Origin: Opeltia flavorubescens
Taxonomy: Eukaryota > Ascomycota > Lecanoromycetes > Teloschistales > Teloschistaceae
Direction: 5' to 3'
Length of the DNA stretch: 64,000 nt
NCBI GenBank assembly: GCA_000442125.1
Contig: KE546982.1
Coordinates: 282,608-346,607 of the forward strand
Each line of letters starts with the position of its first letter. The stretch's first letter is position 1. Below are positions 5,636 through 58,730 of the stretch, piece by piece. A program made the position numbers and the translations under genes. The notes beneath the pieces were generated by a model. It saw only the letters and a program-made list of their open reading frames with translations, did no database searches and was not told where the DNA came from.

Positions 5636-6727
5636 ATGGAACACGAATACAGACCTACGAACAACGGGGAGCCTGAGAATGAGGTTCAGAGAGAAGCTCG
5701 GAGTCTTCCATGGAAGTACCTTTTTTTCGCCTGTCTGGCACTTCTGATCGCAACTTATCTAATGAGATGGCCCATCTCGATTTCCATGATGAAATTACCG
5801 CCTTCCGTGATAGGGATCAATATAAGCTCTTCATATTCCTCTCCGTTGGCCTCGGAACCCGCCAGCACTTCTGCTTCCTCAAACTCAGACTGTATGGACC
5901 TTTTGAGATCGCTCGATTCAATTGGACCACTACCCCATGCCTATCCGCCTGTATATGCCGCTCACCAAGCTGTTCTCAAGATCTTGAATCAAACGGAGCG
6001 ATGGTCGAACATCACCAAAGTTGAAAAGGACGTCGATTCGGTGATCGAAACTTTAGGCCGACAATTTGTCAACTTCGTTGCCAACTCTACCTCCCCAATC
6101 AACAGCGTTACCCTTGGCAATGATTGTTGCACGTTAGACCGGTACCTTCGCATGACGAGCGATCAAGTTCAGGCTGCGATAGAATTTTACACCCGCCTCA
6201 AGGGTACATACTTTGCACTTATTGCATCTGCCGCCCCGGAACCCGTTGGTTTCAAGAAGATCCTAGTGCTCTTGGACAGTCAGTTGTGGTTGTTTAATAC
6301 AACTAAGAGATACCTGGTACCGTACGAAAATTCTTTATGGAATAGGAGAACCGCACGAGCAGGTCTCGAAGCTTGTGAATTAGAGTCATCGCGGCTGGAA
6401 CATATCCTGCAGCTGGTTCAGGGGTTGTCTCGAAGCCTTCAGGACTTCTGGCCGGATACGAGTGTATGCCCTACAGATGAGAGTACTGTTGGTGTAATCT
6501 ATGTGGATTCCACCGACTATGATGAGATTGAACTATTGAAGCCCCAAGTTACGCGGGAATGGGTTCGAAATCGATTGAAGGAGCAGTTTCAGCAAATCTC
6601 AAGGGGGAAGAATACGGTGAAGGAGAGTTGGACAAAGCTCGTTGAATCAAGAGAGGATTGGGAGGAGAAATTCAGGCTTAGGTTCGACCAGGAATGGTGC
6701 AATGGAAAGGCGACGCCGAAGTCGTAG
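5636..6727 (+). CDS. Cluster family A, copy 1: single-span protein with Cys-containing helical ectodomain (363 aa)
   Basis: This is an intronless frame from an ATG in good context. Residues 1-27 are polar, about 28-46 form one membrane span (KYLFFACLALLIATYL), and the rest is a largely helical domain, probably outside the cytoplasm. Compared with the gene at 47823-49121 it shares the pattern C-x2-L-x2-SL at the domain start, a second Cys (DCCTLDRYL versus DFCNLHKLF), the motif FNTTKRYLV versus FNATKRFIV containing an N-glycosylation sequon, a late Cys (TSVC versus NIWC), and a C-terminal W-x-KLV-x-S...F-x-L...C block. The four matched Cys suggest two disulfides; this is inference. It is the first gene of copy 1 and is co-directional with family B. 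No known family was recognised. Confidence 0.85.
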   Translation: MEHEYRPTNNGEPENEVQREARSLPWKYLFFACLALLIATYLMRWPISISMMKLPPSVIGINISSSYSSPLASEPASTSASSNSDCMDLLRSLDSIGPLPHAYPPVYAAHQAVLKILNQTERWSNITKVEKDVDSVIETLGRQFVNFVANSTSPINSVTLGNDCCTLDRYLRMTSDQVQAAIEFYTRLKGTYFALIASAAPEPVGFKKILVLLDSQLWLFNTTKRYLVPYENSLWNRRTARAGLEACELESSRLEHILQLVQGLSRSLQDFWPDTSVCPTDESTVGVIYVDSTDYDEIELLKPQVTREWVRNRLKEQFQQISRGKNTVKESWTKLVESREDWEEKFRLRFDQEWCNGKATPKS

Positions 6728-11229: not shown

Positions 11230-12267
11230 ATGGGTAGCAAAATAAGGAAAATGAAAGTCGTCTTGCGCTCCATCTTCCTCCTTGCCGTCATTATCCAGTT
11301 CCTTGGAACCGTATCTGCTGGCTGGACAACAATTTTCTCGCTCAATCCCCACAGTAACGATACCGCGAGCACGGAAACCGCCACTCATACCCCCTTTGCC
11401 ACACCGGACTCGCACGAACGCGTCCCCCCACAGGATTCCCCGGCCACCATATCATTCTCCCAACTCCCCTACCGAGCCCTCCGCTCTGTCGTATCCACAA
11501 CAACCAATCTCATAAATCGCATCGCCAAATCCTGCCGAACCGGATACCGCTACCTTCAAGCACGACGCAATGAGCGAGCACGTCGACTCGCGCGCGGGGA
11601 AGACATACAATCCACACTCCCCTACCATGTCCGCCAAGCTATCGGGTACAATCCCAGCGCTTTTCAAAAACTAGCTGATGGCCATCGCGGGTCCATCTAT
11701 GCGCCTGCAATCCTATCCCCGGCGCAGCAAGAACCCGAGTGGATGACGGCGATGAATGCGGGATTAAACATCAAAGACGTCCCGTCCATTGCGTTCAAGC
11801 TTGATCGAATCGTGGAGTTATTCGAGAAGGTGCCGTTAAGGGCTCCTTGGTTTTGGGTACCCTGGGCGACTGAGGTGCCGAAGAGGGTGGTCGGCTATTT
11901 TCACGAATGGTTGATATGGCTGGAATTGAAGATCGTGACGGAGGTCGTGGGCGCGATGATGACGTTCCTGATCCTAACCAGCGCCGCATCTATTGAGAAA
12001 TGGTGTCTAGGGGTGGATATCTGGCGTGCTATGTTTTGGACAATGGGCTCTTGGACTTTCGTAGCCTTGCTACAGTATGAGATTTTGATAGGCCCGATTG
12101 TCGCGTATATGGCTACTTGTTGGGTTCTATGGAAGATGGGAGTCCGGTTTTGGTGGGGGCTGGTTGCTGTGTTTTCTATCACGGGGTTACATAGTTGTGA
12201 CTTGATTTATTACATGGCCAGTGGTGCTGCTGACTTGTATTTGCAGAAGTGGAGCTATGTTCGTTAA
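11230..12267 (+). CDS. Cluster family B, copy 1: signal peptide plus multi-span C-terminus (345 aa)
   Basis: This is an intronless frame from ATG 11230; an in-frame ATG at 11251 would place the signal peptide (MKVVLRSIFLLAVIIQFLG) at the very start and matches the start of the paralogue at 46446-47444. After the signal comes a Ser/Thr/Pro-rich stretch, a basic helix (YRYLQARRNERARRLARG), a YAPA motif near residue 156, and from about residue 215 a hydrophobic half with roughly four membrane spans. Shared with the second copy: YL-x2-RR-x2-R, YAPA(I/V), and EIL(I/V)GP-x-V-x-YM in the second-last span. It is convergent with family C, as in copy 2. No named family fits. Confidence 0.82.
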   Translation: MGSKIRKMKVVLRSIFLLAVIIQFLGTVSAGWTTIFSLNPHSNDTASTETATHTPFATPDSHERVPPQDSPATISFSQLPYRALRSVVSTTTNLINRIAKSCRTGYRYLQARRNERARRLARGEDIQSTLPYHVRQAIGYNPSAFQKLADGHRGSIYAPAILSPAQQEPEWMTAMNAGLNIKDVPSIAFKLDRIVELFEKVPLRAPWFWVPWATEVPKRVVGYFHEWLIWLELKIVTEVVGAMMTFLILTSAASIEKWCLGVDIWRAMFWTMGSWTFVALLQYEILIGPIVAYMATCWVLWKMGVRFWWGLVAVFSITGLHSCDLIYYMASGAADLYLQKWSYVR

Positions 12268-13459: not shown

Positions 13460-14562
13460 TCATGGATCCTCATCGATGCCTCCCCACTCCTCTTCTGAGT
13501 CCTCTGTCTCACCATCTCTTCCATCTCTTCCTTCTCTTCCTTCTCTTTGTTCTTCGCCCTCCGAATCTCCGTCGTAGACTTTGTTTGCCTCATCTATACC
13601 TCTGCTTTCTTTGTTCTCACCCTCCTCAATTTCATCATCCTCTTCATTTTCGCCAATTTCCTGATCTTCACCCAAAGCATGTGACCTCATTCTCTCATCT
13701 TGCTGTTGATGTCTAACCTTTTCCACATTGCCATCATCCTCTCCATCTCCGTTTTCCTGCCTGGCTTCAAGTGCTTCGCCATTCACGTTATTGTTAGCAA
13801 CGTTATCTCCTGTACCAGAGCCCTGGCCGTCAACGTTCTTGCCCTCGTCTTCTCCGATCAATGTGTCTTCATCATCAAACATTTCTGCGTCGTTGTTGTC
13901 ATTTTTCTGCTGCCGCGCAGCTTCCACTACAACCTCCGCCGTGACCTCCGCCACAAATTCTCGTCTTCTCGACCCGTCAGCATTCTGGGCCTGTCTCGCC
14001 CGGAGCTTGCGCTCTCTCCGTTCACGCGGATTCCACACCCGCTGCATACCATCCCGTACTCGTCTCACGCCATTGCGGACCTACAGCAGTCATCAGCGCT
14101 ATCGCTCTCTATACGAATCTCATCAGCACGACCTACACTGGTTCCTGTTTCCGTGGGCGAGATCGCGCACCAAAATAGACCGAGGCACAACGCCATAGCG
14201 GCCGCGGTCACGGCACCACCTGCTAGGGAAGCTACCAGTTTCCTGGACGCCTCCTTTTGCGCAATCTTGACTGCCTGGCCCCGGGTAAATACATCTAAAC
14301 TGTATTCGGAAGACGTGTTTGATGAATGCTCTGCCCAGGCTTGTGCGTTCTCCAGTACAATCCTGCAAATGCGGAAAAACTTTGAATTCCCCACGCCTCG
14401 ATAGCCAGGTGGGATTTTAGATAGGTCGTTAGGACAGCGCCGTGCAAAACTGGCTAGCTGTTCGGGTGTTACGGACAGCACCTTGGCTTCCAAGTCCTCT
14501 GCTTCGAAGGCCTGGTAGTCGGCAAGGATCGCGTTGGTATCGAACAGCCGGGCTGGAGCCAT
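13460..14562 (-). CDS. Cluster family C, copy 1: one-span protein with basic stop-transfer and acidic tail (348 aa)
   Basis: Exons (minus strand) are 14562-14137 and 14080-13460, with a 56-bp phase-0 intron (GTAGGT...CTGTAG). The intron has the same length and phase, and the same place in the protein, as in the paralogue at 44513. The start MAPARL aligns with MAPLTL there. Domains: a soluble helical N-terminus containing TPEQLASFARRC, one membrane span at about residues 108-136, a strongly basic segment straight after it (RNGVRRVRDGMQRVW), then about 170 residues rich in Glu/Asp/Asn/Arg ending in EEEWGGIDEDP. The paralogue ends in EEGWGGICDDE, so the WGG terminus is conserved although the tail composition drifts. 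Long shadow ORFs on the opposite strand come from the acidic repeats. Confidence 0.82.
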
Positions 14563-17960: not shown

Positions 17961-18800
17961 TCAAAACGGAGACGGAGGATCGAGAATCTCCTCCCCCCAA
18001 CTCGGTTCCACTCCGAACCACCAGTTCCATTGCCTTGACCAAAAATCCCCGACCCATCCAGTCCACCACAGATAGCTTAGACCGCCGAGTGAGATAGCCA
18101 ACACCACAAAGACCCAAGCGACGAATACCGGCGATGAGGAGCGCGCCGATGGTTGAAGTCCGTACTTAGGGCTCCGAGGGAGCTGCTGTAGAGAACTCAT
18201 TGATCCAGACTCCGGACTCTGGGATGATGGTGATTGTTCGGGTGACTCTAACGACGTTTTCGAAGATTTGGAATTCGTGAAGCTGAACCTCACACGTGAC
18301 AATTTCTTTGCGCACCTCCGAACAAACCTAAGTAGCTTCCGAACTCTAAAGTAGAGCCAGTACAGTGTAATTAAGACCGCAACCCGTCGGACCCAGGTTA
18401 TCACTCCTGAAACCACATTATGATGAAGAGGTAGATACTCCAGCAGGGAAAATACTTTATTGGCAAATGGAGAATTCTTCACCCACTCATACCAAGCATT
18501 CCCCCGCAGATCGAAGTAGCCAGCCAACCAAGTTCCTCCCTTAACCATGAACCCAGAGATCCAGGAGTCCAAGTAGTCCACAGCCTTCCATAAAAGTAGA
18601 TCCGGATGATTGATACATTGATTCCGCCATTGACCTGCAGGACTGCTCTCCGGCGCGAGGAAGAAGGAGATGAGCATGAGGAAGCCGGTGGGAGCGAATA
18701 AGCAGGCCCACCATCGGAATATGTAGCGAAATATGGGGCGGCCTTTCCTCTTTGCCGCTCCCTCAGCGCTCTTCCGATTCCGAGCAGATTTGGGCATCAT
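17961..18800 (-). CDS. Cluster family D, copy 1: three-span membrane protein (279 aa)
   Basis: This is an intronless frame from ATG 18800 (a second ATG follows directly). A basic N-terminus (KSARNRKSAEGAAKRKGR) precedes span 1 at about residues 31-50. A 75-residue loop with many Trp residues follows, then span 2 at about 132-153 and a basic segment (RVRKLLRFVRRCAKKL). A Ser/Pro-rich linker of about 60 residues leads to span 3 near 225-247 and a Trp-rich end. The gene at 52893-53627 has the same order: span, loop, span, basic segment, Ser-rich linker, span, short tail. Sequence identity is low, so the pairing rests mainly on topology and identical position next to family E on the same strand. 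Confidence 0.78.
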   Translation of the reverse strand: MMPKSARNRKSAEGAAKRKGRPIFRYIFRWWACLFAPTGFLMLISFFLAPESSPAGQWRNQCINHPDLLLWKAVDYLDSWISGFMVKGGTWLAGYFDLRGNAWYEWVKNSPFANKVFSLLEYLPLHHNVVSGVITWVRRVAVLITLYWLYFRVRKLLRFVRRCAKKLSRVRFSFTNSKSSKTSLESPEQSPSSQSPESGSMSSLQQLPRSPKYGLQPSARSSSPVFVAWVFVVLAISLGGLSYLWWTGWVGDFWSRQWNWWFGVEPSWGEEILDPPSPF

Positions 18801-19828: not shown

Positions 19829-21395
19829 TTATATCTCCTCTCGTGACTCACCCCCGTATCCCATCGACCACTCTTCCTTTCCCACAATCATCTGCAAAGT
19901 CCCAGCACCAATACCCCCTTCATATCGTCCAATCGCCGCGTGACGCTCCATCATCCACCTTCTCGGAGCTGGCCCCAAAGCATCCCGATCGATCTGAGTC
20001 ATACTCGATCCAACACTGTATATAAAGCAAAGGGTGTTGTCCATTTCAAAAGGCAAATTCCTCGCGCTTTCACAATTCCTCGGTAGCTCACCGGCGAAGG
20101 TGGAGATCCATTGGGTGATGTTCTGATCGGGGTCCTCGAGTAGCACGGTTGATGCTTTTACCAGACGCGGTAGTGGAAGTCGGATAGAACCATCGATGCT
20201 CCCGCGGTATGACCTGATGTGGCCAATGGTTTTTCTCAAATGAGCGTCCAAGTCCTGGGTCATGTATTGGAGTATGAACAGATCGTCGCGGATGGATTTG
20301 GCCAATTCAATCTGTGCTTCCAACGCTGCATCAGCTTCTGTTCGGGTACGGAAGAAGGGCGCTGGTCTGCGTTTGCTCTCAAGCTTGCTGATGAAGCTGT
20401 TCGTCCGCTCTAATGCCTGTACAAGAACTTGACTTTGCGACGGCTGAGAGCGGTTGGTAGCAGGGGCTTCTGAAATGATATTGCTCAAAGCTATGGCAGC
20501 TTCGTCCGTAAAAGTCTTGAACCTGGACCGGATCTGCGCCTTGAGCCGACTTGTACGAATCCTGGGTTTAGGTAGCCAGGGTTGCTCGACTAGCCGGTTA
20601 AAATCTCGAAGGCATGGCATGACCGCCTCGAATATGTACCATTTATCTTCATGGTCAGACTTGATGGCTGCTGCGAAGGCCAAAGCGAGGCTACGGAAAG
20701 CGTAGTTGATATTGTCCATTTCGCAGCAGAGGACAAGCACGAATCGATCCCACCTGTCGGCGAGATGAGAGAAGGTCTTGGTCATGGAATCTTGCTCGAA
20801 AGGATAGGTCAGCTCCTACATACCATGTGCGGAAGTGTCGGAGGGATAAGGGAAGTGGCTCACCTAGAGCACGCTTGAGATCCGACACGGACGGATCACC
20901 CATGGACAGGTGCTCCAGCTCCAGGCCTTTCCGTTCTATCAATGCTTCTTGATCTCTAAGCATCAAGTGGGCAACGAAGATTGCTTCTGTATGTCGGCTA
21001 TGAACAAGGTAATCGTCACGGTCTCTCTGTTGCTCCCAATCGACCTTGTGCCAGTCGGTCGGTATGACAAGGTCGGGCCAGCACCAATGCCCAAGAAAAG
21101 GTCGAGTAGTGCCCCATTGGCAAAGTCCTTCATCGAGGATCAAAGCAGTACCACTTAGATACATCCACGGCACAACGAGGAAGAAACCGATGAGAGGAAC
21201 AGCGACGTACGCGATGAATTTCGAATAGACGATATAGATTTCATCGACCCGGTATCCAGCGCGTTGTCCATAATAGAGGACTCGTCGAACAAAGATGAAT
21301 TCATGCCATGCAACAAGGGTATGTAGAATCCAGAGTGCGACAATCTTCAGCCACGATTTCTGCTCTTCGTTTGCATTCGTATCGGAGTCACTCAT
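19829..21395 (-). CDS. Cluster family E, copy 1: N-terminal spans plus large helical domain (497 aa)
   Basis: Exons (minus) are 21395-20864 and 20790-19829, with a 73-bp phase-1 intron (GTGAGC donor, GCAAG acceptor). The start MSDSDTN was chosen over longer upstream frames because it is an ATG at the point where membrane character begins. There are hydrophobic segments near residues 17-33 and 60-87, then a conserved CQWGTTRPFLGHWCW motif (CQWSRTRPWLGARCW in the paralogue), then more than 350 mostly helical residues. Shared in exon 2: E-x-DNIN, WLP(K/E)P-x2-(R/Q)T-x-RL-(K/E)AQI, and a C-terminal block with NCES...P-x-E, then (V)G...IDRDALG-x2-PR-W-x2-ER (IDGDAFG in the paralogue). It is divergent from family F. 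Function unknown; a surface-exposed or lumenal helical domain is inferred. Confidence 0.87.
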
Positions 21396-21871: not shown

Positions 21872-23576
21872 ATGACTCACCAGACCAGCAGCTCCAAGTC
21901 CAAACCTCGCAGCACCCTTCACCGTTTGATTGTCTCGGTCGTAGTCGGAGTGTTTTTCTATGCCTTTTTAACCATTCTCGTTCCTTTGATCCTCGTGTTG
22001 AGTTGCTATCGACGTCCCCCGTACAGAACATGGCCTCCTCGAGAGTTCCAGTCGTGGAGAGCAAGGCAGGAATCGAATATCCTTATGATAGCAATTTCTC
22101 TCATCATCGGTCTTATCCTAGGACATTGGGGCACTTTTTACAGGTGTTACATCTTTGGGATACACTAAGACGGCAGACGCTGACATCGGTAGCTATTCCA
22201 CGGTCTCATTCGACCATCATGAGTCATTCTCACTACATGATCAAAAGGATGAGAATTCCAAGGCCATTATAATCCACGGCGATAATCCTCCGAGCTGCGA
22301 GTTTCCTCTAAACCTCGACGATCAGCCTCCTTCCGAACACGAAGACTTCTCAACTCATACGGATGAACTTCGATCTATCTACCGGAACTCTCCAACCCAC
22401 GACCAGCCGCTGACTTCAATCCGCCAGAACTTCCGCAACCAGTCACAGCCTCAAGGGACGGTAAGCTTCAGAAGGTTCAGATCTACGATCAAAGGCAGCT
22501 GATATCATCGATAGAACAATCTCCGGCAAAATCACGATATTCTAGCTGGCAAAAAAGCGGAACGGGGTCTGACCACGTTCATAGGCCCGGCGCTCCCTCC
22601 TCCAGGCTTGCGCGTCCGCGAAGAAGGGGGCCGAATCTGGCATGGGGTCACAGAAACTACCCCATTGCCCAAGTGGCTTGCCTACCCACAAGCAGCACGC
22701 GATTCGGCTTCATTTACAGGCCAATTCCCCCCTTCAATCTTGCATGTCGAGGGCCTAGAAACCCTCACTAGCACTTCCAACCACAATTATCGAAGCAATC
22801 CGATGACAAGACAAATCGAACCCCCTCACAGCTATCATCGTAACGATCTTCTCACCCTCAAAGAACCTGTCGCACGAAACGTTCCCCTCCAAAATCCCTC
22901 AACGCCCTCACGCACAACGCAACAACAACCACGCGCACGCCTCCAAGATCCAACACCCCGCAACCTGCGTTCACCAGCCCACCCAAAAAACACCCCAGCT
23001 GCCTCGCCCCTCACCTCCAAAACAGACCGCGAAGATCGAAAGAAAGCCTCTCTCCGCGAATCAAAAAACCGCCTCCTCGCCACCGCAAAAACCTGGAATC
23101 TCGCGCGCGAAAAGGACCTGCGCCATTTCATGTCCTACGCCGACGAACCCACTGGCTCCGCTCTAACATGCCCAAAACCCGCACGCATCGACGCCATCTG
23201 GCAGCGTCTGGAATACCTCATGCTCACCGGCGGCGAGAACACCGAGGAAATCTGCAGACGGACGGTAAAGATGAGGGTGTATCCCGGGGAACACTTGAAT
23301 GGTTTCAACGAGGCGAGGGTGTGGGTGAATTTCAACGGGCACAAGAGGGAGAGGGCGGGCGGAAGCTTTTTCGCGATGGTTGGTGAACTTTTGGGGTTTG
23401 GGGGTGGCGGTTTTGCGGGAATGAGTGAAAAAGAGAGAAAGAAGGAGAAGGAGAGGAGGGCGCCGCCGGGGTATGAATGGAGGTGGGGTGAGGAGGAACT
23501 TAGGAAGTTGGCGGGGAAATGGGAGGGGGTTTCGACGGTGATGGATACTGGGAGTGAGGATGAGTGGAGTGCGTGA
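21872..23576 (+). CDS. Cluster family F, copy 1: two-span protein with long disordered region and basic C-terminal domain (533 aa)
   Basis: Exons are 21872-22143, 22193-22460 and 22515-23576. Intron 1 is 49 bp, phase 2; intron 2 is 54 bp, phase 0, with a GTAAGC donor and GATAG acceptor. Spans lie at about residues 19-43 and 70-87, separated by a loop rich in Arg, Pro and Trp (YRRPPYRTWPPREFQSW). A polar region of about 280 residues follows, then a Lys/Arg-rich domain with VWVNFNGHKRER, a Lys/Glu-rich helix, APPGYEW and an acidic end. The gene at 56536-58730 has the same three-exon plan with the same two phases, and matching LRLWVNINRHRRGE and WPPGYTP motifs. The C-terminal domain may bind nucleic acid or a partner; no known domain was recognised. 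Confidence 0.85.
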
Positions 23577-25123: not shown

Positions 25124-25616
25124 AAGATAGGGAGGCATCATGGCGACTGCTTCTATTGCCGGAAGAATATGTCTAGCATAAATGCACTGGTGGAGCGAGA
25201 GAGCTGAGGAGATCATGATACGAAATTGTGACTAGATATCCAAGGATGGTGTGCTCGTCTGAGAAATTACTCCTCTTTATGCACTGAAAGTATGTCTTGG
25301 TCGCTTGTCTTTCCCTGCCTTCTTCGGTCCAGAGAATGCATTTCTCATATGTGTCAGCGATGGATAATTTAGTTGGTCAATGAAGTGCCCGAGACGTCAA
25401 CGCTCTTTTTTCATAATATGTCTGCACAATCGGTGTGCACTAATCCTTGCATAGAGAGTGATGTATTCATTCATCTAAGTAAAGGCTTTACAATTCGAAC
25501 TCTTTTCTGCCCTCTGCCATTGATTGACTCCACGTCTTGCCAATAGCAAAACTACTGCAAATCGCTGTTGTCACTCAAATCAAGTCTCTTTGGGTTTAGA
25601 ACTTCGAGAGATCAAC
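25124..25616. other. Intergenic between two coiled-coil genes
   Basis: About 490 bp with no gene; it should contain the terminator of the first and the promoter of the second coiled-coil gene. Confidence 0.45.
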
Positions 25617-42315: not shown

Positions 42316-43597
42316 TCAGCCACATTCATCTCCGTCTACATCCATCTGATCCTCCTGCCCAACGTCGTCCGATTTGATCTCCTCACATCGGTAAAAGCGA
42401 CTCAAGTGTTCTGTCATTCGACTGCCCAACTCATTCGCTCCACTTTCCTCGATCTTCGGAATGAGCTGACATGTTTCCAGATGTCTCATCGCCTCATCGT
42501 ACGCATCGCCACTTCTGGTAACCAAGCGCTTGAAACTACACCGGGATGGCATTAGTTCTGGATTCATCACGGACAGTGAACGATTGGTGACAAGTACGTA
42601 GGCGAGCACCGGAGACGATACTTACAAGGCATCCGTCAGATCATTGACAAGCCAAAAGATACAGCCGTCACCGAGTTTCCCACAGACAAAGGTAAGCCCC
42701 CTGACGAGATCAAGAGCGTCTTTGATTGATGCAAAGTACTCTTTACCGTGTTTATTGCGTAAGCGCGTCATCATCACACTCTTCCCCTCCGATGATCTCT
42801 TCCACACTGTTCCCCAAAGCTTCTCAAAGACTTGGCCCATGATGAGGAAGTGGAGGAGCCGAGCGGCCTTTGCTGTCATCTCTGCGATTCTCCGGCAGAT
42901 ATATGGCACTTCTGTGGCCGTGGGAATCGGTCCCAGAGCCGCCTCAAGGTGTAGATATTTGGCCAGATCGATACGGGCAGCGGAACCGAGCGTCTTTTGC
43001 GAGCATGGTGGTAGCTGGAAATCAACCTTTCTAAGGATGGGCCCCCACTTACTACTGGTAGGAGGTAAGTCGGATGACCAAGCAACAGCAGCCAATGTCT
43101 TGGGCCGGCCTGGCTTCTTGCCGGTCCCTGTCGGCGTCGCTGGCGGTACATGATCCCTCTGCCTCCTCGCTGGCGTCACTTGATCCCTTTGCCTCCTCGC
43201 TGGAGGCACGACGTGATCACTGTCATCTTCCAAGACTGTTTCATTACTGGCATCGACCCTGTCGTTAGCGTCGATTCTGTCAGTGACAGGTGGCTGCTGG
43301 GTATAGGCTGGCGGTGGGATATCACGCGGCAGCGGTGCCAAACGCCTCTGGAGATCCCGCAATGACTCTTTCTCATCTTCATCTAATGCATCGAGTGGTA
43401 GAAGCTCTAGTTTAGAGCGACCCTAAGGATATTCAGCATCTGCAAGCTATTACACACTGGATTTTGGGAATTACTTCGCGACTGAGACACTGAACGAGCA
43501 TGTTGTAATAATCTCGTGGTCTCGGATGAGTTATGGCTGGGGTTGAGCTCTCGGGGGGCTGTGGTTGAACTGATGTAAATTGAAAAAGATTTCTCAT
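42316..43597 (-). CDS. AT-hook protein, three exons (379 aa)
   Basis: Exons (minus) are 43597-43475, 43422-42626 and 42535-42316. The introns are 52 bp (phase 0; GTAATT donor, CTTAG acceptor) and 90 bp (phase 2; consensus GTAAGT donor, GTGTAG acceptor). The N-terminal 130 residues are polar, with a tandem pair of ARRQRD-containing repeats encoded by a roughly 30-bp DNA duplication at 43149-43208. Then GKKPGRPK at about residue 142 fits the AT-hook core GRP flanked by basic residues, suggesting minor-groove binding to AT-rich DNA. The following 200 residues look folded (PYICRRIAEMTAKAARLLHFL; FEKLWGTVWKRSSEG) and the end is acidic (EDQMDVDGDEC). It is divergent from C' across a repeat-rich interval. 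A nuclear or chromatin role is plausible; no full-length family was recognised. Confidence 0.75.
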
Positions 43598-43602
43598 TTT
43601 TG

Positions 43603-43714: not shown

Positions 43715-44139
43715 AGCTCAGGGAAACCAAAGATTGCCGGTGGTAAAGGAAGAGAAAAGAAAGACGAAGAATGTGGCAAATTTTCTTTCGTTATCGCCAG
43801 GACCACCTGAACCCTATCACCAGGACTGAATGACGCATGTTCACAAATAAACAGCTTCGGAGCCGCTGTTGATTGGCTTATATTGTTGACTCGGACGTTG
43901 GGTGGGCCGATCAACCGCCTTCACTAAGTCGGGTGAACAAGGTGAAATCAGGATTGATTAGCCAAGATCACCTCGCTTCCTCGAATCATGGCCTGGACAC
44001 GTATCACGAGCTTTGTTGATCGCTATAATTGGTAGAATACATGACGGCATGATATACTCGGGGACTCCGTAGATCCGATATGTTATCTACCTCTTTACAC
44101 TCCTTGTCGCTCCTGAGCTGTCTGGACTCTCCAATTAAT
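43715..44139. other. Unique spacer between the two 19-bp arrays
   Basis: About 425 bp of non-repetitive sequence with no gene seen. It should hold core promoters for the divergent AT-hook gene and the family C copy. Confidence 0.4.
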
Positions 44140-44485
44140 AGCAACATTTTAAGCAAACAGCACCTCGTCAAGAAAACACCTTCTCAAGCAAACAGCACCT
44201 TGTCAAGNNNNNNNNNNNNNNNNNNNNNNNNNNNNNNNNNNNNNNNNNNNNNNNNNNNNNNNNNNNNNNNNNNNNNNNNNNNNNNNNNNNNNNNNNNNNN
44301 NNNNNNNNNNNNNNNNNNNNNNNNNNNNNNNNNNNNNNNNNNNNNNNNNNNNNNNNNNNNNNNNNNNNNNNNNNNNNNNNNNNNNNNNNNNNNNNNNNNN
44401 NNNNNNNNNNNNNNNNNNNNNNNNNNNNNNNNNNNNNNNNNNTCAAGAAAACACCTTCTTAAGCAAACAGCAACTTCTTAAGCGT
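44140..44485. repeat. 19-bp minisatellite array, right arm, containing the assembly gap
   Basis: The reverse complement of the left-arm unit repeats here, with alternating 19-bp and 16-bp versions. Bases 44208-44442 are Ns, flanked on both sides by repeat sequence, so the gap is almost certainly unresolved array and the true copy number is unknown. The array ends about 28 bp before the start codon of C', in the same orientation relative to that gene as the left array has to the AT-hook gene. Confidence 0.82.
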
Positions 44486-44512
44486 TTTCAACTCTTGCAC
44501 CCGCAACTTTCA

Positions 44513-45573
44513 ATGGCACCTCTGACTCTTGAGAGGCGACGCTTCCCGCCGTTCGGACTGCAAAAGGAGAATTGGTACGCATGGGGCGCGCTGGTCGGCA
44601 AGGCTGAGCTCGTGAAAGACCTGGAAGCGCACACTCCTCAGCAACTCAACGATTTTTTCGGCCGCTACTGCCAGTCAGAGCCTCAGCCTGACCACAGCGG
44701 TATTCGCTTCGAGGATGTTTTCGAGGCTTGTGCGTATCTTAAGGATGAGGGCATAAAGCTACTTGAATTATCAGCCAAAATGAATGCCACGGCCACGTCG
44801 AGCACGTCAATACATCTCGTGTGGCCGACGATGGCCAACAAGAGGTCGTTATGGAGGCCGTCAAGGGCCATGGTGTTGGGTTCCAGCCTAACAGCCATTG
44901 AGCTTGTTTTCGTCACGTACCTCATGTGGAAAGTGATTGAGGACGGACCGCTGGGACAGAAGGTATGTCATAACAGAGCAATCTCATGAGGTAGCACCAG
45001 TATTAATCATTGCTGTAGATACGCCACTGCTCCAGGAAGTTACGAGAGCAAGTCCGCGGCCGCTTCAGACGACGAGAACACAAGGAGCAGGTTCGGCAGA
45101 CAAGACTGCTTAACGACTTGGAAAAGGGAAAGACAGATGAGGAGAAGGCGGCGGAGAAGGCGGCAGAGGAGAAAGTGCGGCAGGAGAAGGTTGCGGAGAA
45201 AGTACGGCAGGAGAACGCGGCGGTGGAGAGTTGGCGTCAGAAGGAGTTGCGGACTAAATTGGAGCAATCAAACAATGACCCTTCTTCTTCTTCGGCCATT
45301 AGTATTCTACAAACAAGCTCGGAGTGCCAGGAGAGTCGAGACAGAAAAACCGGAGAGAATAATCAGGAGAAGGAGCCGGGGGATGGGATGGATGAGCATA
45401 AGGATGAAGACCAAGATGACGATGACGAAGACCATGAAGATGACGATAAGGATGACGATAAGGATGACGATGAGGATGACGATGAGGCAAAAGTGGAGGC
45501 GCAGTTGCAGACGGAGAAAGAGAAGGGAAACGAGGATGAGGAGGGATGGGGAGGCATCTGTGATGACGAATGA
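44513..45573 (+). CDS. Cluster family C, copy 2: one-span protein with acidic tail (334 aa)
   Basis: Exons are 44513-44962 and 45019-45573, with a 56-bp phase-0 intron (GTATGT...CTGTAG). Intron length and phase equal those of copy 1. ATG 44513 gives MAPLTL, matching MAPARL. The soluble N-terminus contains TPQQLNDFFGRYC (TPEQLASFARRC in copy 1). One span lies at about residues 118-142, followed by a basic segment (RKLREQVRGRFRRREHK), a Lys/Glu/Ala helix with repeats of EKAAEKAAEEKVRQEK type, a run of KDDD/EDDD repeats, and the terminal EEGWGGICDDE. The acidic run makes spurious long ORFs in the other frames. It is convergent with B', as C is with B in copy 1. Confidence 0.85.
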
Positions 45574-46445: not shown

Positions 46446-47444
46446 TCATGGCCAGTCCTCAAACATCTTCGTATTCCAGCTCAACAGGTCGGGGCATTTC
46501 CAATAAAACACCAAACAGCCCAGCACAAACGTCCTCCTCCATATACTCCCCACCCTAACAGCCGTCAGGAACCCCAAAGCAAGCATGTAATTCACCGCTG
46601 GGCCCACCAGGATCTCGACCTTGGTCAAACACAGCAATGTCACAGCCACCACCACCTTTTTGAGACTCTGCCGATAGGACTCTCGGCTCCAGATATTCAA
46701 CAGAGCGGCAAGAAGCACGATAAGGATGCCCGCATGCACGCATCCGACGACCCAGAACGCGAGAGAATACCCCAGGTATCTTAGCACCGCCAGAACCCAT
46801 GACGCGGACGTAATGCAGAGCCCGATAAACTTATCGCGCAACCAGTCTGTGGTAACGGCGAGGGGGCTCCCGAAGGGGATGCGGTCGATGACGGCTTGTA
46901 GGGCGTCAAGATAAAAAGTAACGAGGAAGATGTCGTCATGGTCTAGACCGACGCCTTCGACAGCTGCTTCCCGGACGTCCTTGGCTGTCGTTCGGACTGC
47001 AGGGGCGTAAGGGTGGCCGCTGGTAGATCCGAATCCGAGCGGTAAAGACTCTCGCCCTCCACCTAGTTTTCCTTGCACGAGCTCGGCGAGTGTCAGTTGC
47101 GTGTGCTGTTGTTCCATCTCCCGTTTCCAACGCCGCCGGGAGAGGTATTGGCAGTTCACCTTGATCAAGCGCGGGAGGTCTACGATGGTGGTTCCTATTG
47201 ATTTGGCGAGAGAGAGGACGGCGTGCCAGGATTTTGCGGCTGCGGACGGGATGTTGGTATAGAAAGGCGTAGTGTGGTCTTCTGGTTCGTTTCGGGTTGA
47301 AGGAGTTGGGCCAAGCTCTGCGCTTGGAGAGACTGTATTGGAGGGTAGGAGAGTGGTAGACGACATCGTTGTCGACGTCGCTTGTGATAAGATTTGGAGG
47401 ACGATAAACCAAACCACGTTGATCCATATCAAATTTGCCTTCAT
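46446..47444 (-). CDS. Cluster family B, copy 2: signal peptide plus multi-span C-terminus (332 aa)
   Basis: This is an intronless frame. ATG 47444 was chosen because it gives a typical signal peptide (MKANLIWINVVWFIVLQILS) and aligns with the internal Met of copy 1; the open frame upstream has no ATG. A Ser/Thr-rich stretch follows, then a basic helix (YLSRRRWKREMEQQ), the motif PYAPAVR (IYAPAIL in copy 1), and from about residue 195 a hydrophobic half with about four to five spans, including KVEILVGPAVNYML (QYEILIGPIVAYMA in copy 1). The adjacent gene A' starts 378 bp upstream on the same strand, so A' and B' are co-directional as A and B are. Confidence 0.83.
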   Translation of the reverse strand: MKANLIWINVVWFIVLQILSQATSTTMSSTTLLPSNTVSPSAELGPTPSTRNEPEDHTTPFYTNIPSAAAKSWHAVLSLAKSIGTTIVDLPRLIKVNCQYLSRRRWKREMEQQHTQLTLAELVQGKLGGGRESLPLGFGSTSGHPYAPAVRTTAKDVREAAVEGVGLDHDDIFLVTFYLDALQAVIDRIPFGSPLAVTTDWLRDKFIGLCITSASWVLAVLRYLGYSLAFWVVGCVHAGILIVLLAALLNIWSRESYRQSLKKVVVAVTLLCLTKVEILVGPAVNYMLALGFLTAVRVGSIWRRTFVLGCLVFYWKCPDLLSWNTKMFEDWP

Positions 47445-47822: not shown

Positions 47823-49121
47823 CTACTTATCAACGCACTTCTCAAAGTCCAGTCCTAGGACGAACTTCCTCTTCTCATTGGATCCCGACACGACAAGCTT
47901 TTCCCATTTATCTTTTAGTCGATGATTATCATCTATGTATCGCTTTTTCCATTCCATAAGAAGCTTCTGCCTCCATTCACGTTTCTCTTGCGGGCCCAAG
48001 CCTTCCTTGTAAACGTCCGAAAAAGGGGCTTGGTTGAAAGGATTTGCAACCTGAAGACACCATATGTTGCTTTCACGTCGAAATCGAGAGAGAGTCTCGG
48101 CCACCTCCTTAATCACCTCGGAAATCTGTTCGTGCCGCGATAAATACGCATAATAGGCTTTGATAGTTGCATTCGCTTTACGCATGTTGGTATAGCCTTG
48201 TTCATGTTTCACTATGAATCTCTTGGTTGCGTTAAACCCAAGCGATATGGACGTGAGCGGTATCTTGACTATGAGGTGATCTGCTATCGCATGGAACAAG
48301 ATCTGACCAACGTTGCTTGGATGACCTACTGAGTCGGCAGTTGATTTGAGGTCTTTGTAATGATCCTTGATAGGTTCGTAAAATGTGCGTAGATCATCCA
48401 TCTCGCGGCCACCGTCCCAAAAAAGCTTATGGAGATTGCAGAAATCACGCTCAAGGGTAGCAGTAGTAGCCGTAGCTGTAGAGGTGAATATCCGAATGAT
48501 TTCGGTAAGGAAGTTGGTGAGTCCTTCACCGGTAGCTTCAACAATTGAATCAACGGCTTTACGAACCCCTTCCATAGACCCCAGTAAGTCGGTACGATTT
48601 GTCTCCTCAAGAACCAAGCGGTGGGCGTTATCGGATGAGAGGGCATAAGGGACTTGCTCAAGCAGCTCGAGGGACTTGAAAAGGCTGATGCAGTGCCAGT
48701 TCTCGGGATTTGAAACAGGCGATTCCAGAATATCGGAGCCCGGTGGTTCTGATACCTCGGGACTTGGCGGTCTCGAGGTCTCAGCGTTTGGCAGCCGAGC
48801 CGGCATCAATATTGAGTCGCTATGTACTGGGGATAACCAGTTCGACGCCGAGAATGACCAGTTCGATAACGATGATGACCAGTTCGATAGCGAGAATATC
48901 CGGTCCGGTGCTGAAACTCGCCAATTCGGCGCTCGCGGTGGCCAATTTCTAGCCATGAGAGCTATAGCAATAGCAATAGCAACAGGTAAGAGGAAGCGTG
49001 GTCGAACCAACTTGGCGGCTTTCCATGGCTCAGCTGCCTGGATGGGCCTTGGAGCCTCCTCTCTTTCGTTTCCATTGAATTGTGCTTCCCAATCTTCCAC
49101 CCTGAAGGTGGGTTCAGGCAT
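47823..49121 (-). CDS. Cluster family A, copy 2: single-span protein with Cys-containing helical ectodomain (432 aa)
   Basis: This is an intronless frame from ATG 49121. The N-terminus is a polar region of about 40 residues, followed by a span (FLLPVAIAIAIALMA) and a juxtamembrane stretch with four NW-containing repeats (SLSNWSSSLSNWSFSASNW) that copy 1 lacks, then a Pro/Ser linker. The ectodomain matches copy 1 in all four Cys positions, in the FNATKRF sequon motif and in the closing W-x-KLVVS...F-x-L-x-F-x-KC block. The extra 70 residues relative to copy 1 are mostly the NW repeat and linker. Role unknown; a surface-exposed anchored protein is the simplest reading. Confidence 0.86.
   Translation of the reverse strand: MPEPTFRVEDWEAQFNGNEREEAPRPIQAAEPWKAAKLVRPRFLLPVAIAIAIALMARNWPPRAPNWRVSAPDRIFSLSNWSSSLSNWSFSASNWLSPVHSDSILMPARLPNAETSRPPSPEVSEPPGSDILESPVSNPENWHCISLFKSLELLEQVPYALSSDNAHRLVLEETNRTDLLGSMEGVRKAVDSIVEATGEGLTNFLTEIIRIFTSTATATTATLERDFCNLHKLFWDGGREMDDLRTFYEPIKDHYKDLKSTADSVGHPSNVGQILFHAIADHLIVKIPLTSISLGFNATKRFIVKHEQGYTNMRKANATIKAYYAYLSRHEQISEVIKEVAETLSRFRRESNIWCLQVANPFNQAPFSDVYKEGLGPQEKREWRQKLLMEWKKRYIDDNHRLKDKWEKLVVSGSNEKRKFVLGLDFEKCVDK
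48838..48930. repeat. Short tandem repeat encoding the NW repeats of family A copy 2
   Basis: On the + strand the element CCAGTTCGA(T/C)A-x-CGA recurs every 21-30 bp (near 48837, 48858, 48879 and 48897). It lies in frame inside the coding region and accounts for the juxtamembrane length difference between the two family A copies. Confidence 0.75.
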
Positions 49122-49684
49122 GTTGGGAATAGAAATTGCTCTATTACGTATATCTTCAGAGCGTTGATTGAGTTTATCTAGGATTAAACTGGCTGAGCAT
49201 AGAATCTGGAAGATATCTTAGGTCGTGTATGGGCCAAGCGCTGTACCTAATCCAAAATCATACCTACCTAGTACCGATGCGGCTGGGACATGGACTAGTC
49301 CGGTTGGGGCTGTCTTGGCGCCAAGGTCATCAACCAGGCAACAGAAGCAAACCATCTCACTTACCACAAATTGATCCTATTCCTAAAGTATGGCAGAGTC
49401 ATCATGGACAGATCACGTGCCACTCCCCAACATCAACGTGTGTTCTTCATAGTGACCGCTGTCATGGCCGGATTTCTACTGCTGGCATGACAGAGCTTAT
49501 ACCGTCTCTTCCGCCTACAGCATTATTGTCCGGCATACATCAAGGGGAGGATGAGTCGGTGAAGGCATGCCAGACAGTTCGCCTTCAGGACTCGACCTTC
49601 TTCAACCGCCACGATTGAGATCCGCCTGCACTTTCTCTCGCCCTGCAGCAGTAGTCCCCAAATCAGCAGTCCGTCTCTTCCCAA
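49122..49684. other. Intergenic upstream of A'
   Basis: About 560 bp; should contain the A' promoter. The ORF at 49229-49618 lacks coding features. This interval begins the rearranged junction between A' and D'. Confidence 0.4.
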
Positions 49685-51212
49685 CCTTCAAGCGCCTCGA
49701 TGAACTCTTGCGACTCCATCCACACATGGCTGGACAAGACGCAATCATTTGTAGACAGCCTGACAGCGATTCCAATCTCGCCGGAGCACGTCCAAGTCAT
49801 TGACATGAAACACAGACGAAGTCCCTCACCAGAGTTGGGGCCACCACAACCCAGTCTTACTGTGCCATTCCCCCGAAAGACATTCAAACAGCGAATCCTC
49901 TCAATGATGTCCTCGGATCAGACTACCTTGCCTGATCTATATATTGTCCACCCGACCCTGACTTCCAAGTGGCTCACATCTCTTCCTTGGCGAATCCTCA
50001 CTCCGGCAAGGAATCCGTCCACCAGCGCCTCGTCGTACCAAACTCCCGTCACTCCACCAATCCTTCCTCGCACTCCGCCCAAAACCTGCCGCCCAGCCAT
50101 GTCCGTGACTATTCGAAGCAGCATCGGATGTCCTTCGATGAGGAAATGCTCGAGAAGCCCGAAATAAAAAGGTTTCGCGATCTCATCAAGAAGGTTGTCC
50201 ATACCGAACGTCCTTCGGGCCACCAAGCGAAATCCGAGAAAGGATAGCAGACTCGAATATTTCGGATTGTCTTTTACAATGAGGCCACCATCTTGGATCA
50301 CATCCATCCTCTCCTAGTTGAAGGTGGACGGCAAGTCCTCATCCATGGTCCGCCCACGGAAGAAGCGTCTTCAACGGAGACCAAGGTCTACAACTCCCTT
50401 TGGAAAGGTTTCGAGGATTCAGGATTAGACTGGTCCTTGAATCGCGAGCTTACCCGCACATTCCTACCCAATAAATACCACATCATCGGCTACGACGAGC
50501 AGATTGCGAAAGCTCCCGCGAAGGAGTGCGGTATGAAGGCTCTAAAACCTAATCGGGCTTATGGGCTCGCAATCAGCGATATACCGCCTCCCGAAACTCA
50601 ACCAGCCCTCTTAGGAGATGGGACACGATATTTGTTGAACGCGATCCCAGACCTGCAATAACTCTTCCTTCTCATCAAGGGCGTAAGGAGCGCGGATGAT
50701 TTGAACAAGGCTTTTGACCAGGCCTGCCGGGGCGGCACCGTCGCTGTCTTCATCCAGCGTCTGCTCCTCCAAGCTACAGGGGAGGATCTGATGCAGGAAG
50801 GAGCTGACCGCCAGACTCAGATGTACACGGCGACAATTGACACCTACGCCATGTACTCTTAAGTGAACTACGCCCATGTCAAGACAGCCCTGCCGTTAGG
50901 TAAGAAGGTCGTGGACTTTTACATGGGATGTATCTATTCCCGTACCTTCCGAGCCGATTTTGCTGAGATCTGCTTACAACGCTTCTGCTACAATATCCTG
51001 AACCGGGGTGTTCAATCTCATCGGGCAATACTCGAGTCGCGCTGTTCGAAAATACATCAGGTCGAATGACAGATGATCGAATGCGACGCACAAGAAGCCA
51101 GAGCGCAGACTGCCGCTTCTATCGCTGCTGCATCAGGAGCTCAAGAGCAAGCTAGTAGCAACAAGAAGCGCAAGGCTGCGCCCGGATCAGTCAGGCAGGC
51201 AAGTGGTTGATG
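49685..51212 (+). pseudogene. Broken gene resembling fungal PD-(D/E)XK nuclease-like proteins
   Basis: Successive + strand pieces read as one protein family in order. The N-terminal part begins with IHTWLDKTQSF and has an RRSPSPE patch. Then come a segment before KRFRDLIKKVV, a long segment with LVEGGRQ...LDWSLNRELT, LPNKYHIIGYDEQIA, then FLLIKGVRSADDL...QACRGGTVAVF, a TATIDTYAMYS strip, and a C-terminal piece with YNILNRGVQSHR and a basic end (NKKRKAA). The order of an acidic/Lys strip, a Q-A-x-RGG-x2 strip and a following beta strip fits PD-(D/E)XK-like accessory proteins common in filamentous ascomycetes. The frame is interrupted several times, so it looks inactive. It inserts no visible terminal repeats and lies at the junction where copy 2 differs from copy 1. 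Confidence 0.6.
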
Positions 51213-52892: not shown

Positions 52893-53627
52893 TCATCCCT
52901 GGAACAGTAGGATAAGAGTATTCATCGCTTTGTATGGGGATGTTTCGGAAGTCTTAAAAAGGATCAGGAGAATGATCAAGATGATTGACAAGGCGACATA
53001 GAGTATCACTCGACCTGTGGAGCGGGACGGCGATTGTGCTTCAGGTTTCGAGGTCTGCGACGTCTGCTGTGAGGAGATCTGTGACCGGGACCTGAGGCTC
53101 TGAGGTGATGAATGGGTGTGACTCTTGGACGGAGCTGTCTCAGCCTTGTCTCGCGCGGCAGACGATCCTTTATGTTGAAGGGGACCGCGAAGCTTCGATG
53201 TACACGCTTGGTAGAGCTGAAACGGGGCACGGGCTATCCGGACGAGAAGTGATAACCCCAAGACTGCCGCGAGACGACCGTAAATCCGTTGCGCCAAGAT
53301 GGTCGACAAGAGAAAAGTCTTGATTGCCTCCGATAGGCCAAACCGCTCATCTAGCCCGGAAGAAAAAGCAGTGATGGGCCAGAGCATCCAAGCTCCGAAC
53401 CAATCCACCCCGGACAAAACAAGGTGCTGCATTAGACCCCAAATTGCCACGGAGACGTTTTTGATCCCGGTCCACGTGCCGAGGTGTCTACCAATGGGAC
53501 TGTCCTTTGATGCGCACAAGCAAGTGATAACGACGAATGCTAGCATTACGGCCAATGGATTGACAACCCATCGATAAAAGTATAGGATCTTCTCTTCACG
53601 CTTTAGATACAGCTTAAGCTTAGCCAT
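52893..53627 (-). CDS. Cluster family D, copy 2: three-span membrane protein (244 aa)
   Basis: This is an intronless frame. ATG 53627 was chosen because the longer open frame upstream has no ATG and because MAKLKLYLKREEK aligns with the basic start of copy 1. Spans lie at about residues 21-38, 116-135 and 207-226. Between spans 1 and 2 is a Trp-containing loop of about 75 residues. Between spans 2 and 3 is a basic then Ser/Gln/Pro-rich linker of about 65 residues (SPQSLRSRSQISSQQTSQTS). After span 3 comes a short hydrophobic tail. The order and spacing repeat copy 1. The Ser-rich linker probably faces the cytoplasm and could be phosphorylated; that is inference. Confidence 0.78.
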   Translation of the reverse strand: MAKLKLYLKREEKILYFYRWVVNPLAVMLAFVVITCLCASKDSPIGRHLGTWTGIKNVSVAIWGLMQHLVLSGVDWFGAWMLWPITAFSSGLDERFGLSEAIKTFLLSTILAQRIYGRLAAVLGLSLLVRIARAPFQLYQACTSKLRGPLQHKGSSAARDKAETAPSKSHTHSSPQSLRSRSQISSQQTSQTSKPEAQSPSRSTGRVILYVALSIILIILLILFKTSETSPYKAMNTLILLFQG

Positions 53628-53993: not shown

Positions 53994-55497
53994 CTACAGA
54001 TATCCACCATTCCCGAGAATGAATTGCGCGATTGTAGCGTTCATTCTTGCCTTCTGACGGGTTTCTGCGGCCTTCCGTTCCACAATCCACGATCTCGGCT
54101 TGTCACCGAAAGCATCCCCATCGATTTCGGCGCTTCGACATCCCACCGTATGAAGAAGACAAAATGGATTCAGCTCCGACGGTTGGTCCTTATCGCTCTC
54201 GCAATGTTTTGGAAAATCTGCTATGAACCGGGATTTCCAAGCTTCGCGATCGATTTCCGGCTTCTTGAGCAGCTGATCCCGAGCGGCCACCACACGGGGA
54301 GACGTAAGCCCCCACCGAAGCGCCATATCGATGCTCTTCCGGTGAGCCTTGAGATAAGCAAGCATGTCCCTACACAGACTATCTTGATGCTTGACCGTTT
54401 CTTTAAAATTTACCAAGTCTGTATACATCCCCTCGGCTACTTGAATTGCCGTAGCCAAATTCCGATCGACACCCGGTTCTGTAGAGTAATGTGGGAACCA
54501 TCCCGCTTGGTTCTCATTGAGACTTTTGATGACAGTTCTGACGGTATCTTGCGCCTTTGAAAGGGATCGGATGAGAGATTGCACTTGGCTGTCCGTAGTA
54601 GGCGAGCTCGAAATGATGCTTTCCAAAGACAAGATAGCTTCATCGACGAAGGTTTTTGCCTTGGACTGAATCTGAGCCTCGAGGCGTCTGGTTTGGGTTT
54701 TGGGCTCGGGGAGCCACGTTACCAGGACCATCCGGTTCCATTCTTGTACGACTGTGATGAACGGAAAGCTCCAATACCAAGTGTCTTTATGGTCCACTAT
54801 GGCAGCGTCTGCATAGGTCCTCATAAGGCTAGAAAGCCCCATGTTGATATTATCTTTCTCACTGCAGAATGTATAGATGTAATCCGACGATTCGTCGGCG
54901 GTATTGGCTGCGTCCGAAGTGACCGATTCTTGTTAAGAAGTGTGGGTCAGCTTCTCGTTAGATTCACTGGAGCAATGAAAGGGGGGTTGGTATACCTATA
55001 TCCTTTAGAAGCCCCCGCACACCAGGGTCATCGGAGCGCAGACGGGCTAGCTTCGAGCCTCCATGCTCCAGCCTTGCTTGCCAGTCTCTGATTGTCATCG
55101 GAGCGGTGAGGAAGGCTTCGAGGGATGGATGAAGGGTAAGGTAGTCCCCTCGCGCCTGCTGCTGATCCCACCGGTCCCTGACCCAACCCAGCGTCGGCAC
55201 ATCGAGCTCGGACCAACAGCGGGCTCCTAGCCAAGGCCGGGTGCGGCTCCATTGGCAGGGCCCGTTATCGAAGGACCAAATGAGGGCGAGGAAGATTAGT
55301 GGCGCAATAAAAACAGCCGCCCCGAACGGCCAAATGAAGAGACCCACTGCATGCCAATAGACAGCCTGATAGTCCTCGCGTGTTCTATCCCAACGACGGC
55401 CGAGGCGTACGACTCGTTTGAAGAGCAGGAATTGCAAAACGGTGAACACGGTGTCCCGGAGCGAACGGCAGCACGCTTTGATACGATCGAATACCAT
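53994..55497 (-). CDS. Cluster family E, copy 2: N-terminal spans plus large helical domain (471 aa)
   Basis: Exons (minus) are 55497-54996 and 54907-53994, with an 88-bp phase-1 intron (GTATAC donor, ACGCAG acceptor). The intron falls at the same codon position relative to conserved residues as in copy 1. Start MVFDRIKACC is an ATG. The hydrophobic region lies at about residues 45-75 (FIWPFGAAVFIAPLIFLALIW), then CQWSRTRPWLGARCW, then the long helical domain. Shared blocks with copy 1 include KDNIN, WLPEPKTQTRRLEAQI, and near the end F-x-KHCESD...P-x-EL-x-PFCL...VG and IDGDAFG-x-KPR-W-x-VER. Two conserved Cys after the span and one in the (N/H)CES motif may be structural. Confidence 0.87.
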
Positions 55498-56535: not shown

Positions 56536-58730
56536 ATGAAAGAAACATCATTCACCCCTAAAACGAGGTTGACGTGCAACTTTAAGCCGATCCCAAGAAA
56601 TCTCTTCCGCGCAGTTCACCGTTTCTTTTGGCCGCTACTCCTCGGAATTCTAGCCCCTCAGTTCTCGATTATTGTTATCCGCTTCTTTAGGAATCCCTGG
56701 AGCTATGATCGCCCTCCGGAAAAGGAGTGGAAACCTTGGGAGACGCAAGAAGATATTAACAAATGGGCTTATCCGGTCTTGTACATTCTTCGTCTCGTGA
56801 TCTGGGGATGGATCTCTTATTCTTAGTGGGTACTCACTTTCTTGGGATGAGCAGACGTTGATACTTATAGCGTCTTGGACATTTCATTCCAGCCTGAGGT
56901 GTATCCACCGCCAAGTAGCCTACGAGAGACTCCGCCAAGTGGCCCACCAGAGACTCCGCCAAGTGGCCTACCAGAAACCCCAGAAACGAGACAAATCGCG
57001 GCCACTCCGGAACAATATCCGCTCGATGGGAGTGCGGTAAACTCTCAGGAGGAAGCGCCAGCTCCAAAGGTCGAGGACGCCCAACAGGACCTTTTCAGAA
57101 CCCCAAGAGCAGGTCAAACGGTTGCAACGACTCTGAACCAGCGTTCACTTGACATCAGAACCCTAATGTTAGGTGAAGGAGCCGTTACTACAAAACAACG
57201 ACCGCTTGGTAGCAAAGCGAAAAATGAGTCCCAAACTCCAAAACCGAGTCGAAGAACTATACCAACTTCGACGCCAAATCTATCTAATATAGATGATGGA
57301 GAGGGGTACAACGGTTATACTACTGGGGCTCTAGATTCATCAGAGCGTAACCTAAATCGGTCGCGAGGAATTTCTCGCCGCGATCAGATCAAGTCAAAGC
57401 TATACCGGTCCAAACCTTTACCAAAGAATAATTATTCCCAGGGTATATATTCTAACCAGGTAAATAATTACAATTCAATTTCTACAATCAAGTTGGATTC
57501 TAATAGAAATAGAATGATTTTTCTCCATCCGATCATATTTCTCTAGCCGATAGTTCCAGTCCGGGTAATAATTTCCGTCAGCGTATTCCATCTTCTCCAG
57601 GTAATCCTTCCGGTCTGGATACTAGGCCTTTCCCAGACAATCGTCCGCTGGGTAATCTCTCGCCATTTAATAAAAACGAGGATATCGATATCTCTCGCAA
57701 AGAAATAGGAGAAGCGTCGTTCTCAATTCAAAGTCCGCCTGGTAATATTGCCCCCTTCCTACAATCAAGGCGCTCGTACGGTAAGAGGGGAAACCCCTTT
57801 CACGCACGTCAAGATGGTGAAACACGCTCTCAAAAGAGGATCCCATTCAAAAAAGAAGCGGTAGCTGTAGCAAAGGAGGCAATATCGGAAGAAGAAACGG
57901 CGGGGCTAGAGACAAAGAAAGAGACGGTTGAGAACAAAGAAGAAATACTGAAAGAACAGGAAAAGACGGTAGGAGAAAAGGAAAATCCGCTAAAGCAACA
58001 GGAGAAGACATTAGAAGAGAAAAGTTCAACGGCGGAACGAGAAGAAGCGACGCTGAAAGACAAGAAAGCGGTACCAGAAGTCAACGAACCCACGCCAGCG
58101 AAAGAAGAAACGATACCAGGAGTCAAGGATTCTCCGCCGGCAAAAGAGAGAGCGATACAAGAAGTCAAAGCGGCAACGCCGCCGGAAAAAGCTGCGTCCT
58201 CCAATATCCCCGTTGGATCAAGATCATGCAAGGATCGTTTCTTCCACTCCCGGGAATTTAGGCAGACCGCGCTCAAGAAAGATAGGGACTATGTTCTAGA
58301 GGTTGCATTGTCTTGGGGGGAATCCTATACAGAAGAGGATTTTAAAAAACTCATCCGCTACAACGCCAAGATCGACGATGACGCCCTACAAAGACTAAAT
58401 TCAAAAACGATCAACGAAAAGACTTTAGAAGCAGAGCATCACGTTTGGCTGCGATCGAATCTACGGCCTCATGCAGAACGAATCTTTCCTGGGAAGAAAG
58501 CGAGACCCCTTAATATCTTGAGGCTTTGGGTCAATATCAATCGGCATCGAAGAGGGGAGGTGCCGTTTTGGCCTCCGGGCTATACACCTGTACACAGCGA
58601 GGAACAAGCGAGAGGTGCGGATTTGGATTCAATGACAACGGATGCCGATGGGACCACTTACGACTCAACATCAGACAGCGGGACGCTGGATGAAGAGTCG
58701 GACGACGAAAAAAGGGGTGGAGAGGAATGA
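56536..58730 (+). CDS. Cluster family F, copy 2: two-span protein, repeat-rich disordered region, basic C-terminal domain (698 aa)
   Basis: Exons are 56536-56825, 56871-57459 and 57513-58730. Intron 1 is 45 bp, phase 2; intron 2 is 53 bp, phase 0, with GTAAAT donor and AATAG acceptor; both phases equal copy 1. Spans lie at about residues 31-50 and 78-95, with a Pro/Trp-rich loop (FFRNPWSYDRPPEKEWKPW). The disordered part holds repeats: PPSGPPETPPSGLPETPE early, several SPGN/PLGN units in the middle, and a Lys/Glu block of roughly 120 residues before the C-terminal domain. That domain contains VALSWGESYTEEDFKKLI, LRLWVNINRHRRGE and WPPGYTP, then an acidic Asp/Ser/Thr tail. It is 165 residues longer than copy 1, mostly by repeat expansion. 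Confidence 0.85.

Follow-up and report, generated by a model that had tools for sequence, protein, structure and literature searches.

A locus in which the same six gene families occur twice raises the question of whether it encodes one membrane system of six cooperating parts or simply a neighbourhood that was copied. We examined this in a window of 64,000 nucleotides from Opeltia flavorubescens, for which a preliminary description had proposed six gene pairs (A to F and A' to F') whose products act together. All six pairs are present at the positions given for them. The window holds two copies of six uncharacterised membrane-protein genes that differ by one internal flip, and this points to an old duplication of the neighbourhood. 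We regard the duplication of the six-gene neighbourhood itself as nearly certain, and read the two clusters as the outcome of an old segmental duplication that copied a fungal neighbourhood restricted to its lineage. No paper describing such a six-gene cluster was found in the literature searched, which mostly did not include subscription journals.

Gene models and order in the two copies

The gene models were built by hand, with A, B and D as single-exon genes, one intron each in C and E, and two in F. The eight modelled introns are 45-73 bases long and have GT...AG ends. In the first copy, A (5636-6727, plus strand, 363 aa) has one transmembrane (TM) segment near the N-terminus and a large C-terminal part with four conserved Cys. 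B (11230-12267, plus strand, 345 aa) has a signal-like hydrophobic segment at its N-terminus and several further hydrophobic segments in its C-terminal part. C (13460-14562, minus strand, 348 aa; exons 13460-14080 and 14137-14562) has one TM and an acidic tail, and D (17961-18800, minus strand, 279 aa) is a basic protein with three hydrophobic segments. E (19829-21395, minus strand, 497 aa; exons 19829-20790 and 20864-21395) combines an N-terminal membrane anchor with a large C-terminal part with five conserved Cys. It appeared as two pieces in the list of open reading frames (ORFs), which the intron joins into one gene. F (21872-23576, plus strand, 533 aa; exons 21872-22143, 22193-22460 and 22515-23576) encodes two TM segments, followed by an extended region of low complexity and, at the C-terminal end, a stretch that is conserved.

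The second copy consists of C' (44513-45573, plus strand, 334 aa; exons 44513-44962 and 45019-45573), B' (46446-47444, minus strand, 332 aa counted from the first ATG), A' (47823-49121, minus strand, 432 aa), D' (52893-53627, minus strand, 244 aa counted from the first ATG), E' (53994-55497, minus strand, 478 aa; exons 53994-54928 and 54996-55497) and F' (56536-58730, plus strand, 698 aa; exons 56536-56825, 56871-57459 and 57513-58730). The 5' end of C' is less certain, because its ATG lies only 70 bases from a run of N (44208-44442). Short tandem repeats flank this run (44133-44482), and the assembly just upstream of C' is therefore uncertain.

With strands included, the order is A+ B+ C- D- E- F+ in the first cluster and C'+ B'- A'- D'- E'- F'+ in the second. 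A single inversion of the A-B-C block converts one order into the other; counting both overall orientations, 42 of the 46,080 signed orders lie within one inversion. Because only this block was inverted, A-B are in tandem, B-C convergent, E-D in tandem and E-F divergent in both copies. The six genes are contiguous in each copy, over 17.9 and 14.2 kb, with 20.9 kb between the clusters. Spacing is unequal, the A-B gap being 4502 bases in one copy and 378 in the other.

Segmental duplication of fungal gene clusters can copy a whole neighbourhood nearby, with inversion and divergence to follow. The present locus resembles this pattern: it was copied nearby, inverted in part and diverged, with homologous genes (five of six by sequence, D weakly), conserved order and strand, and conserved intron positions. 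What sets it apart is its content: the six families are unrelated to one another, lack a Pfam match and are membrane-anchored throughout, and every one of them has been kept.

Homology, introns and constraint

Pairing was assessed first by blastp, with the stop-to-stop ORFs of the window compared all against each other at E<=0.01. This recovered E/E' (exon 2, 34% identity, 1e-51; exon 1, 36%, 2e-25), A/A' (28%, 7e-20), B/B' (22%, 5e-5) and F/F' (exon 1, 22%, 2e-4; exon 3, 0.006). The first exon of E and E' (20864-21395 and 54996-55497), which holds the anchor, is thus a conserved pair in its own right. Five other pairs passed this threshold: three were shadows of the E exons on the opposite strand, and two were short stretches, at 29.1/29.4 kb and 43.6/44.1 kb. 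The C and D pairs were not detected by blastp of these ORFs.

Spliced proteins were then compared with shuffles that preserve composition in 20-residue blocks. Local Z values were 27.2 (A), 7.7 (B), 5.7 (C), 3.0 (D), 61.3 (E) and 5.6 (F). For C, residues 1-175 alone gave a Z of 11.9, and none of 1000 shuffles reached the score. In the case of F, the local score was reached by 1 of 500 block shuffles; the N-terminal part was matched by 0 of 1000, and the C-terminal part by 0 of 1000 in local and 1 of 1000 in semiglobal alignment. Over its whole length F is weak, with Z values of 3.4 and 2.2 (semiglobal, full shuffles). At the level of sequence comparison, the strongest single result for the pairing is a six-by-six matrix of the families, in which the diagonal block-shuffle Z values were 30.8 (A), 5.9 (B), 5.3 (C), 3.3 (D), 59.8 (E) and 6.0 (F), and all 30 off-diagonal cells stayed at or below 1.7. 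A common origin of A and E, also considered, found no support: this matrix gave no signal, and hhalign, run with two sequences per side and no positive control, returned a probability of 0.3%.

The pair D/D' has to be treated separately. Its local score was reached by 6 of 500 block shuffles (semiglobal, 9 of 500), and in a 1000-shuffle test by 10 (local) and 5 (semiglobal). With full shuffles, cross-family noise reached Z values of 5.0 (D'-F) and 3.5 (A'-E), and in 103 comparisons of eight extra ORFs with the family proteins and ORF H (see below), unrelated ORFs reached 4.7 against A' and 5.1 against A. Because unrelated comparisons reach about 5, a Z of 3 is not proof, and homology of D and D' is not proven by sequence alone. 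We accepted the pair because both genes occupy the expected slot on the expected strand and have a similar layout of first TM, Ser-rich stretch and last TM. Thus, of the pairing by homology that had been proposed, five pairs hold by sequence and D/D' mainly by position, strand and layout.

Intron positions agree with the pairing. In C, residue 143 (phase 0) aligns with residue 151 (phase 0); in E, residue 178 (phase 1) with residue 168 (phase 1); and for the first intron of F, residue 91 (phase 2) with residue 97 (phase 2). The second intron of F is in phase 0 in both copies, at residues that do not align. Since the splice sites were picked by eye with both copies known, these coincidences count as support and not as independent proof.

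Over aligned residues, identity is 33% for E and 31% for A, 25% each for C and D, and 23% each for B and F. In all six pairs, codon position 2 shows the highest nucleotide identity. At position 3 it is 0.29-0.39, which is the lowest of the three values in every pair but B, whose positions 1 and 3 are equal. The proteins of all six pairs are under protein-level constraint, and both copies are open. No direct repeat of at least 40 bases linking the two copies was found. With third positions close to random and the copies joined by no long repeat, either the duplication took place long ago or this region is fast-evolving.

Searches for relatives and adjacent loci

The six families had been described as having no recognised relatives. 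This stands for Pfam in the case of all twelve genes, for PDB sequences in the case of A, B and E exon 2, for viral contigs with A, B and E, and for prokaryote contigs with A and E; for C, D and F it is confined to Pfam. In the Pfam scan, run on A, B and D whole and on C, E and F one exon at a time, no match to any of the twelve genes attained the cut-off of its family; the highest score was 16.7 bits (B'), where 25 was required. The best PDB sequence matches had E values of 0.19 for E exon 2 and 0.48 for A, with none up to 1 for B. Viral contigs yielded no relatives (queries: the E exon 2, A and B pairs, and E' exon 2 alone), nor did prokaryote contigs (E exon 2 and A pairs), and plasmids gave no tblastn match for E exon 2. 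The prokaryote, virus and plasmid negatives say little about a fungal family. AlphaFold2 models of single chains from two-sequence alignments had mean pLDDT values of 45.1 (E exon 2) and 35.5 (A), too poor for contacts; with the poor E model, Foldseek gave 0 matches at E<=0.001 and 326 at E<=10.

Across the window GC content is 44-52% in 2-kb steps and ORFs are sparse; neither a tRNA nor, at gathering scores, any Rfam match was found in it. Together with the short introns, we take these features to be those of a filamentous ascomycete. Pfam was also run on 166 other ORFs of at least 75 aa; among 111 of these there were two single matches, both weak (E 0.0065 and 0.0092), and the remaining 55 had none at E<=0.01. 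Neither the twelve genes nor the scanned ORFs contain a transporter or recognition-system Pfam domain, and no transposon or enzyme domain was found by Pfam in the scanned ORFs.

These scans bear on the proposal that the genes are cargo of a large mobile element inserted or duplicated here. Such an element would fit two copies 20.9 kb apart, the lack of a recognisable gene in the scanned ORFs of the stretch, and a broken gene between A' and D' (49655-51210, plus strand), of which several open pieces with stops remain. However, the 166 non-family ORFs of at least 75 aa contain no recombinase, transposase or integrase domain and the window no inverted repeat of at least 40 bases, while the ends of an element may lie beyond the window. 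We consider this origin very improbable. The broken gene may resemble a fungal domain of unknown function, for which Pfam gives no support.

Several other loci were observed. ORF H (61465-62475, minus strand, 336 aa) shares the layout of A, with a single strong TM and an extended C-terminal part; a third copy around H was rejected, this A-like layout being accompanied by no sequence relation to A or E. Its matches at three loci in viral contigs cover 21 residues only and were taken as chance. At 60039-60791 (minus strand), a hydrophobic ORF (60426-60791) is followed by an acidic one (60039-60422), and the two are perhaps one spliced gene. The acidic ORF, without a Pfam match at E<=1, has a Cys/His-rich stretch that we take to resemble a zinc-finger type. 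Just after F, two probable unpaired genes (24290-26352, plus strand) are predicted to be rich in coiled coil and have coding-like codon use, as does an unpaired ORF at 42625-43422 (minus strand), which had no Pfam match among the matches listed. An array of a 14-base unit lies at 28822-28950 (9.2 copies, 98% matches).

Membrane topology and possible joint function

The expectation that five or all six families are membrane-anchored was borne out, as each of the twelve proteins has a 19-residue segment with a mean hydropathy of at least 1.5. In A and E, the conserved Cys (four and five) and every N-glycosylation sequon are located after the TM. From this distribution, the C-terminal parts of A and E are probably extracytoplasmic and disulfide-bearing. 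Cys placement is no strict guide to topology, since there are further, non-conserved Cys, two before the TM in E' and three after it in C'. In C, the two conserved Cys and the only sequon precede the TM, and the acidic tail follows it; the charges on either flank do not decide between orientations. D is a basic protein (K+R 34 vs D+E 16; D' 28 vs 11) and C acidic (K+R 44 vs D+E 77; C' 52 vs 78), and a contact between the two would be speculation.

Our best explanation can be outlined as follows. Firstly, six adjacent genes were duplicated as one segment. Secondly, the A-B-C block was inverted in one copy. Thirdly, all six pairs stayed open and diverged strongly. The products are read as integral membrane proteins in which no enzymatic domain is recognisable: A and E would be anchored once, near the N-terminus, with a large disulfide-bearing part that is probably extracytoplasmic, B and D would have several membrane segments, and C and F long charged or low-complexity parts that are probably cytosolic. 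The likeliest mechanism, in our view, would be a non-enzymatic membrane or cell-surface assembly, A and E facing outward and C and F acting as inner scaffolds, kept in two diverged versions. As a whole, this explanation is tentative, its chances falling somewhat short of even; one membrane or surface assembly of the six products is plausible but, like its topology, location and role, inferred. In a stricter version, which we consider unlikely, a fungal membrane machine not described before would require all of A to F, again with the same outward parts and inner scaffolds and with two diverged versions kept in one genome.

Joint use can be argued because all six pairs were retained, both copies are open and constrained, and membrane location is common to them. 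However, since the six genes adjoin one another, a single segmental duplication copies all of them, whatever their function. An ordinary segmental duplication of fast-evolving, lineage-restricted neighbours, each pair being kept separately and without any six-part system, is a possibility that we take seriously without favouring it. It agrees with the contiguity of the six genes in both copies and with the lack of any cross-family relation in the six-by-six matrix. It agrees also with the upstream regions: over 600 bases ahead of each of the twelve genes, with N removed, no common motif was found among 7-, 8- and 9-mers, which were common to at most 6, 4 and 3 genes, whereas 60 shuffled sets averaged 5.95, 4.03 and 3.03. 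Plain adjacency, the missing common k-mer and unequal spacing likewise speak against joint function. Separate retention accounts less readily for protein-level constraint and open copies in six of six pairs, all of them membrane proteins. We weigh joint function and independent retention equally. Of the interpretation originally offered, the duplicated six-gene membrane-protein neighbourhood is well supported, and joint action of the products, as a surface complex, a recognition system or a transport assembly, is a proposal.

Self/non-self recognition at the hyphal surface, the copies being diverged specificities, is a lesser option. HET-domain incompatibility loci are marked by the HET domain; no Pfam match to it was found in the twelve genes or in the 166 other ORFs of at least 75 aa. 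PMC9550227 describes cwr-1/cwr-2 as a cell-fusion checkpoint locus of Neurospora crassa; PF11915 is present in cwr-2, and cwr-1 encodes an AA11 polysaccharide monooxygenase. The likeness lies in linked fungal genes with one multi-spanning product; unlike that pair, as described there (PMC9550227), the present locus has six genes, and neither the twelve genes nor the scanned ORFs have a Pfam match to the AA11 monooxygenase or the PF11915 membrane protein. The outward parts inferred for A and E and the strong divergence of the copies would suit a recognition locus, but no known fungal recognition-gene domain occurs in the twelve genes or scanned ORFs, and we consider this role improbable.

What the locus means depends on whether clustering of A to F recurs in other fungi. 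If it does not, the window would hold a well-preserved but ordinary segmental duplication. If it does, six families without a named relative would gain a common context, the natural duplicate would reveal the residues that each family had to keep, and the cluster would become a testable candidate for an undescribed membrane assembly.
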